A DNA stretch of 64,000 nucleotides from Lysinibacillus sp. B2A1 (lineage in GTDB: Bacteria; Bacillota; Bacilli; Bacillales_A; Planococcaceae), in the NCBI GenBank assembly GCA_002973635.1, contig CP027224.1:3234501-3298500 (forward strand), read 5' to 3'. The first letter of the stretch is position 1. Every line of letters starts with the position of its first letter. The notes under the pieces were generated by a model. It had not been told where the DNA came from. It saw only the letters and a program-made list of their open reading frames with translations, and did no database searches. Positions 45,292 through 46,506 of this stretch are shown piece after piece. Both the position numbers and the translations under genes were made by a program.

Positions 45292-46506
45292 TTACTTTTT
45301 TACTGCATGAATATAGTGTATCGATTCAACGGCTGTTAGATAATCCCCACGTTTATTGAAATAAAGATTTTGTACAGCTTTAGGGGATAAATGCTCATAA
45401 ATTAGTTGATTTGATTTTTCTAAGAGCATCTCCATTTCATGAAAAGTAAAGCATGACTTCATAGGTTCACCACTTGCGGCTGCCATTTTTACCATATTGC
45501 TTACTCGATTAGAAATCCCTTCTTCATGAAATAAGTTTTCATCTGCATAATCCATTACGATTGAGCTGCCTGAAGGTATATATGCAAACAAATGATTGAA
45601 CAAGTTTGAGATTTCCCCTTTTGTTAAATAATACAAAACTCCTAAGAGGCTAAAGAAAGTTTTCTTGTTGTTAAAGCCACTATCTATTAGACGCTGATAA
45701 GAAAATTCCTTTGTAAAATCCATTGCTACAAAATGAAGATTATTAGGTAGCTTGAAATTAGTAGCATCTAATCTATTCTTTTTAAATTTCTGAGTTGCAG
45801 GATGATCTATTTCAAAGATTTCCAAGGTGCTTTCTAAATCTGGATGTCTTAAACAAAAAGTATCTAAACCTACTCCAAGAATAACATATTGCTGTACGCC
45901 CAATCTAATTTCATTTAATAGAACTTTTTCGCAATACGAAGCACGGGCTAATGGAGTAGGGGAGAGTTGTACTTGGACAATCCATTTTAGGAGCTCTTCG
46001 GCATCTCCCTTTAAACTTTCTGCTATATCTTTGTTAAAGAGTTGTATGCCTTGTACCATATTCTCTTGGATATTTATCAATTATGCCTTGGCATAATTGC
46101 GTCCAGAATCGGCTTTGTGCTTAGGCCTGCGTGATGCAGGTCAGTTAGCCGTTATCGCATGGATGCGATGATTTTTGGCTAACATCCTTTATTAACTCCT
46201 TTCCGATTCCGTGACATCCGCTGGAGGCTTTGGGCCAACACGATGTTGGTCACTCAGGCGTTTTCACAGGATGGGAAGATCTTAGCCTGAGTTCCTCTAT
46301 TTCAGCGGGTGTTTGGACACCCGCTGAAAAGTAGCTTCACCATCTATAGAGGTGGGAGACTTCTGCTGAAAGAAGTTAAATTCAAGCTGCGTAATTAAAT
46401 CTTTTGCAAGATAGTCATCAAAAATTTGGGGGATATCAAATTGACTTTGATAGGCTTTGCTAAATGCTGCGATTAATGAAGTTAAACTGGATTCACTTTT
46501 CTTCAA
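45292..46506 (-). pseudogene. SAM-dependent methyltransferase split by a mobile repeat
   Basis: The N-terminal part (from TTG 46506, after AAGGAG) reads KKSESSLTSLIAAFSKAYQS, then DDYLAKDLITQLE, and stops in the insert. The C-terminal part (46080-45292) begins INIQENMVQGIQLFNKD and carries YVILGVGLDTF, the SAM motif of the TIGR00027/PPM1-like class. Removing the 300 nt between 46081 and 46380 joins the two in frame as a normal-length, roughly 305-aa enzyme. The insert is 46083-46378 plus one copy of AATT. The 262-aa downstream frame has no ribosome site and is probably not translated. Confidence 0.85.
46083..46378 (-). mobile_element. 300-bp dispersed repeat, copy A, inserted in a methyltransferase gene
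   Basis: 296 bp with AATT on both sides (46079-46082 and 46379-46382). It has no coding frame. The minus-strand left end has hairpin ACTTCT-TTCAGC-AGAAGT; the right end has the perfect arms CAATTATGCC and GGCATAATTG. Internal nested hairpin GTTAGCC...GGCTAAC. Shares core blocks with 7127-7411 and 32575-32836. This looks like a non-autonomous element. Confidence 0.8.

Follow-up and report, generated by a model that had tools for sequence, protein, structure and literature searches.

A non-coding repeat with an IS200/IS605-type left end interrupts a methyltransferase gene in Lysinibacillus and represents a large Planococcaceae family of probably TnpA-mobilized elements

In the 64,000-nucleotide window (the whole stretch of Lysinibacillus sp. 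B2A1 DNA that was analyzed, numbered from its first letter), we found a methyltransferase gene that lies on the minus strand in two parts, a 5′ part at 46376–46506 with a likely TTG start at 46504–46506 and a 3′ part at 45292–46075 with a PF04072 LCM match (E 2e-39). Read directly, the minus strand of this gene runs ...DDYLAKDLITQLE, then about 300 nt of non-coding sequence and then INIQENMVQGIQLF.... The closest orthologue, from the sister genome G014, has the uninterrupted junction GAGTTTAATAATATCC, where the source DNA has GAATTTAA-insert-AAATATCC; the insert is therefore the 300-bp stretch at 46076–46375 (minus strand; CTTCTTTCAGC...GGCATAATTGAT), placed directly after TTTAA, and the other orthologue loci were compared in the same way. 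This TTTAA is the host target pentanucleotide (46376–46380, minus strand), which sits immediately 5′ of the element on the element's top strand and is also present in the G014 orthologue. Borders identical to these are seen for the element family at 10 other sites compared between the source genome and G014 and at one site compared between genomes G030 and G018. The first-pass annotation, which had described a non-coding insert of this size splitting the gene, was right in this and in its length of 300 nt, but the deletion that it proposed (46081–46380) is displaced by 5 bp: joining the halves at those borders gives E-L-I-N-I-Q against E-F-N-N-I-Q in G014, whereas removal of 46076–46375 gives E-F-K-N-I-Q.

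Methyltransferase matches at E <= 1e-40 are found in 19 of the 32 genomes of the genus (the source genome included), and the junction is uninterrupted, with the form E[F/Y]xxI, at 18 of the 19 orthologue loci from the 18 other genomes, which amount to 17 places when L103 and L104 are counted as one; L102 is the only one of the 19 loci with no match to this junction pattern. Since the outgroups are uninterrupted at this point, the direction of the change was insertion rather than loss, the methyltransferase site being the only one of the empty/filled sites for which outgroups decide between gain and loss. The gene is simply broken by the insertion. In G001, the methyltransferase is broken differently, by several stops and a frame change (L103/L104; G001:3028510–3029288), and the gene has thus been lost more than once in the genus. 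G014 has a copy of its own, which contains an RF01690 hairpin and lies a short way upstream of the intact methyltransferase there (L230; G014:2876898–2877118, with the 3′ part of the gene starting at 2877373); hence, this neighborhood has been hit twice independently.

The insert has a compact and regular architecture, all of it on the minus strand. Its left end (46331–46380) includes a hairpin ACTTCT/AGAAGT (46359–46376, from sequence and fold); for this end the family consensus, from which the present copy departs at some bases, is homologous to tnpB- and tnpA-side left ends that IS200/IS605 elements have in other Bacilli. Next comes a palindrome, TTTCAGCGGGTGT..ACACCCGCTGAAA (46300–46329, from sequence and fold), the inner part of the left stem, followed by a first Bacillaceae-1 hairpin cassette (46235–46301) and a conserved linker AAGCCTCCAGCGGATGTCACGGA (46208–46230; family consensus AAGCCTCCGGCGGATGTCACGGA in alignment A1, see below). 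A long-range stem predicted by folding, H2 (GTCACGGAATCGG ... CCGATTCTGGAC; 46101–46215), encloses a second Bacillaceae-1 cassette in its loop (46126–46193). The right end (46076–46099; sequence, fold and copy comparison) consists of the hairpin CAATTATGCC-AA-GGCATAATTG (46078–46099) followed by AT, which yields the terminus TTGAT. The hairpin at each end had already been noticed in the first-pass annotation and is present in both cases. The two cassettes score 71.7 and 56.7 bits against the RF01690 model (1.2e-12 and 3.9e-9), both over its gathering cut-off of 35 bits. Together with a single-stranded DNA folding z of -6.6 (-8.8 for a compact copy) and 57 DNA matches to the insert in its own genome, these matches place the insert beyond chance.

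The 72 clusters of DNA and RF01690 matches in the source genome, all of which were taken for end comparison, have like ends throughout (left TTTA[A/T]CTTC[A/T]TTCAGC; right GCC.AGGC..AATTGAT). Forty copies with paired ends, of 75–712 bp by end pattern, could be delimited (the left end of the longest, 758097, is doubtful, and two others, 440383 and 3241494, seem to belong to divergent subtypes); these begin with TTTAT in 22 cases and TTTAA in 11, and end with TTGAT in 35, the corresponding numbers among the 45 paired-end copies of G014 being 28, 10 and 43. Because the patterns used to pick the copies contain those ends, albeit with mismatches allowed, this constancy is partly by construction; the independent test comes from the empty sites. 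The comparison with G014 covered 1.6 Mb of 5.25 Mb, in much of which the two genomes are colinear, and included both flanks of 21 of the 40 copies (20 by script and 758972 by eye), of which 9 are filled, 11 empty and 1 unclear in G014. The pentanucleotide at the 11 empty junctions is TTTAT in seven, TTTAA in two (the methyltransferase and 1214710, where the flank has diverged), and TTTGT and TTAAT in one each. A twelfth empty/filled pair comes from an IS607-type tnpB whose tail contains a copy in G030 and is uninterrupted in G018 (GGAATTTAA-[133 bp]-CTGACAC versus GGAATTTAA-CTGACAC, with flanks 94–98% identical and a border ambiguous by 2 nt). Over these 12 sites, the element is inserted 3′ of TTTA[T/A], with a variant pentanucleotide at two, and a target duplication is present at none.

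These data bear on the AATT that flanks this single copy on both sides, which the first-pass annotation had read as either a 4-bp target duplication or an AATT at the ends of the element. The right AATT is indeed part of the element's own end, AATTGAT, whereas the left one is host sequence (GAATTTAA), and the duplication falls away. A classical MITE, mobilized by a DDE transposase and leaving a target duplication of 4 bp (AATT) or 5 bp, would be favored by the paired AATT but is accordingly hardly credible: terminal inverted repeats are absent (the constant left TTTA[AT]CTTC.. and right ..AATTGAT ends are non-complementary), TTGAT recurs as the right pentanucleotide from site to site in the large majority of the pattern-picked copies counted above, and each of the 12 empty sites has one TTTA[T/A]-like block, which refutes such a MITE as far as these sites go. 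The proposal of a mobile element without a transposase holds up; the first-pass annotation had stated that relatives with no intact gene or copies with inconsistent ends would speak against it, and we found many copies elsewhere, with consistent ends, and a gene that is uninterrupted at that very point in relatives. Movement is on the whole not very recent, as no pair among 85 copies compared near full length exceeds 96.3% identity. At one empty site of G014 (L194, about 1146651; source copy L035, 1210619–1211180), the sequence TTTATCTTCATTCAACT resembles the element's left end, which may reflect chance, a remnant or a hint at a targeting rule. Several copies (e.g., L026, L031 and L040) have small palindromic modules with GCGAAAGCGAAGCGGCAG-like cores nested in their loops or ends, and these modules vary between species at the same site. 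A 45-bp copy from Lysinibacillus xylanilyticus (L280) has little beyond the left 17 and right 28 bases and is perhaps a terminal-only form.

We aligned 26 compact copies of 184–197 bp (78% mean identity; alignment A1), chosen from 40 candidates after exclusion of those that had additional cassettes or whose ends were poor, and drawn from the source genus and from Lysinibacillus, Sporosarcina, Metasolibacillus and Arthrobacter records, some without a listed title. Typical copies are also present on three contigs titled Arthrobacter beigongshangensis (L255, L291 and L293); the label of this assembly looks doubtful, as the element is otherwise found in Planococcaceae-type genera. The consensus fold (RNAalifold) comprises a left closing stem, a GCC/GGC mini-stem, a long second hairpin and the right-end hairpin, and, as in the single-copy folds, palindromes are present close to the element's termini. 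Under this fold, 95.7% of 978 cells are paired and 17 of 38 pairs have changed on both sides, a level of covariation reached in 0 of 500 shuffles and above that of all slid versions, for a structure derived from the same alignment as the one tested. G-T is rare among the standard pairs at the 21 variable pairs (9 of 501) by comparison with 28 G014 tRNAs (38 of 597); the former count omits the pair 128–186, which is mostly T-G and with which the whole structure has 29 of 936. By this rough control, we infer that selection acts on DNA hairpins, and the scarcity of G-T leans toward selection on DNA rather than RNA hairpins. It also bears on the view that the locus is a putative regulatory RNA, a Bacillaceae-1 sRNA maintained by selection and not a selfish element, which draws on the two RF01690 hairpins over the curated cut-off and on how strongly the family body is structured and covaries. 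We consider this very unlikely given the rare G-T pairs, the presence or absence of the element at the same sites between sister species, the interruption of a gene, and the variation of RF01690 hairpins between species within copies that share a site.

The last point is best seen in the distribution of the RF01690 hairpins themselves. The source genome has 94 matches, 93 of them over the cut-off, which by an approximate placement based on motifs fall into paired-end copies (46), copies with unpaired ends (6), two other repeat families (35; e.g., L010, L022, L048 and L084) and elsewhere (7); eight times, RF01690 hairpins form pairs 469–490 bp apart in the same orientation. Eight of the nine filled sites shared with G014 were aligned, the divergent subtype 440383 being left out, and the source copies at all eight contain an RF01690 match, whereas among the G014 copies only those at 474867, 1221113 and 4611982 have one over the cut-off and those at 526188, 595626, 643412, 1485717 and 4887414 do not. 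At three sites (581680, 717143 and 5125010), the source copy has a cassette ATAGAGGAACTCAG...TTGGCC where G014 has TGAAGAT; at 664408 a second cassette type and at 4847666 a nested cassette differ between the two genomes, and at 1602103 the G014 copy is expanded by other small repeats. Identical cassette breakpoints at unlinked sites indicate exchange between copies. The Bacillaceae-1 hairpin as an independent, cleanly inserting mobile unit finds no support at the sites at which TGAAGAT is replaced by the cassette instead of being extended by it. These observations suggest that an sRNA family of Rfam stands, in these genomes, for a hairpin cassette carried by mobile repeats, a reading that bears on automatic small-RNA annotation.

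A covariance model of the compact form of the family (R1) gives at least 129 matches in the source genome and at least 121 in G014, with 150 candidates scored in each (the insert at 46076–46375 is not among the 150 listed for its genome). Across the order, it matches 112 of 200 genomes, all in one family and in 11 of 17 genera (at most 12 matches were scored per genome), and across the class, 21 of 299 genomes, 13 of them from the same family as the source. Five genomes in which the DNA search gave no match (G013, G016, G021, G027 and G029) are copy-poor by the model, with 7–10 matches each. The eight positive genomes beyond the family include one with clear copies (G332, family f27) and weak matches in f22, f23, f11 and others; there is no match to the element in collections of 72,556 plasmids and 50,697 phages. 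When fetched, the weak matches proved to be mostly left ends of IS200/IS605 elements, with TTTATCTCATTTTCGCAGAAGACTCCCACCTCTATAGG.GGTGAGATGAATGCG and similar sequences. Over its first ~60 nt, the family consensus matches both tnpB- and tnpA-side left ends in other Bacilli: against 16 left-end sequences of other families, which had come up as weak R1 matches, the consensus scores 42–88, with shuffles (20 each) reaching at most 31, and TTTA[T/A]C stands just upstream of the shared core in 16 of 16. Among six of the 16 checked for the ORF behind the left end, four have TnpB genes (L400, L403, L406 and L409; PF01385/PF07282, NF040570), one an OrfB N-terminus (L411) and one a Y1_Tnp N-terminus (L412; 24.4 bits, cut-off 23). 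Three of the 16 (L399, L401 and L402) have no tnpB-like ORF behind the left end, and others are fragments or contig ends. The right end is unlike those of tnpB elements (..GGGAGTCTTCAA) and has no IS200/IS605-type arrangement of a hairpin, a 5′ guide and a separate final tetranucleotide; instead, the last hairpin shares part of its 3′ arm with TTGAT. The insert has no ORF for the Y1 transposase TnpA (the PF01797 matches of its genome lie elsewhere), the paired-end copies of its genome are too short for a transposase, and the element is accordingly not a full member of IS200/IS605.

The copies are strongly oriented. In G014, 42 of the 45 paired-end copies point with replication. The corresponding share is 74% among 1364 predicted genes (p 0.0018) and 49% among 5049 TTTA[T/A] sites in intergenic DNA (p 2.5e-10); the 150 best of 250 R1 matches, after merging, give 69 of 75. 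In the source genome, the best 150 of 250 merge to 57 of 69 with a midpoint terminus and 59 of 69 with the best-fitting one; the midpoint value is fairer than a count of 36 of 40, which used a 3.15 Mb terminus chosen after viewing the copies. The methyltransferase copy, with a local GC skew of +0.09, probably lies against this bias. By the established geometry of replication, the lagging-strand template is the one that holds the element's top strand, read from the TTTA[T/A] side. A preference for this template has been described for IS608 and ISDra2 (PMC6006769), and both TTTAT and TTTAA are recorded as IS200/IS605 target sites (PMC4227781 and PMC11043419).

The left end, the target rule and the orientation with replication make single-stranded transfer by TnpA in trans the likeliest route. 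We judge it probable that the insert is a non-autonomous IS200/IS605-type derivative belonging to a large chromosomal family of the Planococcaceae, most likely moved in single-stranded form by TnpA in trans. In this reading, a short derivative has kept the IS200/IS605 left end and the target rule (insertion 3′ of TTTAT/TTTAA, without duplication), and it combines these with a non-coding, three-hairpin body of its own and a right-end hairpin ending in TTGAT. Single-stranded DNA would be cut after TTTA[T/A] and after TTGAT, presumably by a TnpA (Y1, HUH) supplied in trans, and would be inserted preferentially into the lagging-strand template; the Bacillaceae-1 cassettes would be gained or lost after insertion, for which gene conversion, with copies recombining among themselves, is the simplest route. 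The chief difficulty for the TnpA route is that five of the six genomes with the most first-look element candidates (G001, G020, G022, G030 and G031) have no Y1_Tnp match at E <= 0.001, the sixth, G018, having two partial ones. Further points against it are the right end, which does not match those of IS605 elements, the three related left ends with no tnpB-like ORF, the two variant pentanucleotides and the absence of TnpB (PF07282) from G000, G014 and G001.

The element-rich genomes with no Y1_Tnp match favor another mover for the same element, namely an enzyme that acts at TTTAT and is either encoded by the host or works in the manner of site-specific recombination. This has been suggested for the bcr1 repeats, whose TTTAT motifs and possible recombination-like mode are noted in PMC6542083. 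The absence of the element from the plasmids and phages, its wide spread inside one bacterial family and a right end that is not IS605-like point the same way. We nevertheless hold this to be unlikely, as the left end is IS200/IS605 by sequence, insertion follows the IS200/IS605 rule on target and lack of duplication, and TnpA may come and go on elements outside the assemblies. Among other candidate enzymes, IS110 was rejected as the mobilizer, as it does not track with copy number and IS110 transposases are absent from the element-rich G031, and reverse transcriptases (RVT_1), though found in all six richest genomes, also occur in several poor ones and do not track either, which speaks neither for nor against them. 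The three intact Y1 elements of the source genome were also discarded as mobilizers, their ends being different (by eye and pattern), and a role of the element's 3′ half as a TnpB guide RNA was dropped because TnpB (PF07282) is absent from G000, G014 and G001. In an 800-kb portion of G014, no paired ends were found to enclose a long transposase-bearing element; the one long pair inspected there as a possible autonomous element, 4.1 kb end to end, turned out to be two separate elements around unrelated genes, and the other long pairs in this portion are of 2.1 and 2.6 kb on the plus strand (weak ends) and four of 8–23 kb on the minus strand.

In the literature searched, to which subscription papers mostly do not belong, we recognized no account of this element family. 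With more than 100 model matches in each of two genomes and hits in 112 of the 200 genomes searched in one order, it offers a large natural experiment on the movement and upkeep of transposase-less IS605 derivatives, one that comes with empty/filled pairs and with copy-rich genomes without a recognizable Y1 transposase. A close parallel is with the palindrome-associated transposable elements (PATEs) of the haloarchaeon Haloquadratum walsbyi (PMC3119063), which raise the same problem: their insertions differ between strains even though no intact TnpA gene is present. PATEs share with our element the absence of terminal inverted repeats and target duplications, palindromes near the ends, a length that leaves no room for a transposase gene, kinship with IS605-type ends (in our element on the left only), short copies that consist of the termini alone, nested smaller repeats and strain-specific insertions despite missing intact TnpA genes. 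The element thus works like an IS605-derived PATE, with four of five PATE features present; for the fifth, end palindromes related to IS605-type elements, the left end matches and the right end does not. It departs from PATEs in its bacterial host, an IS605-like left end only, a large covarying body, the Bacillaceae-1 cassettes and a spread across much of one bacterial family. More tentatively, and with the balance against it, one could view the elements as a family-wide bacterial counterpart of the haloarchaeal PATEs, which would spread without a recognizable TnpA (in G001 also without TnpB) through an unrecognized host enzyme, with Bacillaceae-1 as a DNA-hairpin cassette swapped at fixed breakpoints.

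With IS200/IS605 elements (ISDra2, IS608 and the IS1341-type tnpB elements), the family shares the left-end sequence, the 5′-side TTTAT/TTTAA target without duplication, hairpin ends and the orientation bias with replication; it differs in having no tnpA or tnpB, a different right end and a TTGAT that lies partly in the right hairpin arm. The bcr1 repeats interrupt genes. Compared by description only, bcr1 of the Bacillus cereus group is likewise short, non-coding and structured, with many mostly chromosomal copies and a TTTAT motif, but it is reported to be restricted to that group (PMC6542083 and PMC2267715). Finally, the Bacillaceae-1 RNA is entered in Rfam as a 67-nt sRNA (RF01690; Table 1 of PMC2864571), whereas here two of its members lie inside a single insert, and the hairpin is one cassette of larger mobile repeats, besides occurring in two other repeat families of the source genome.
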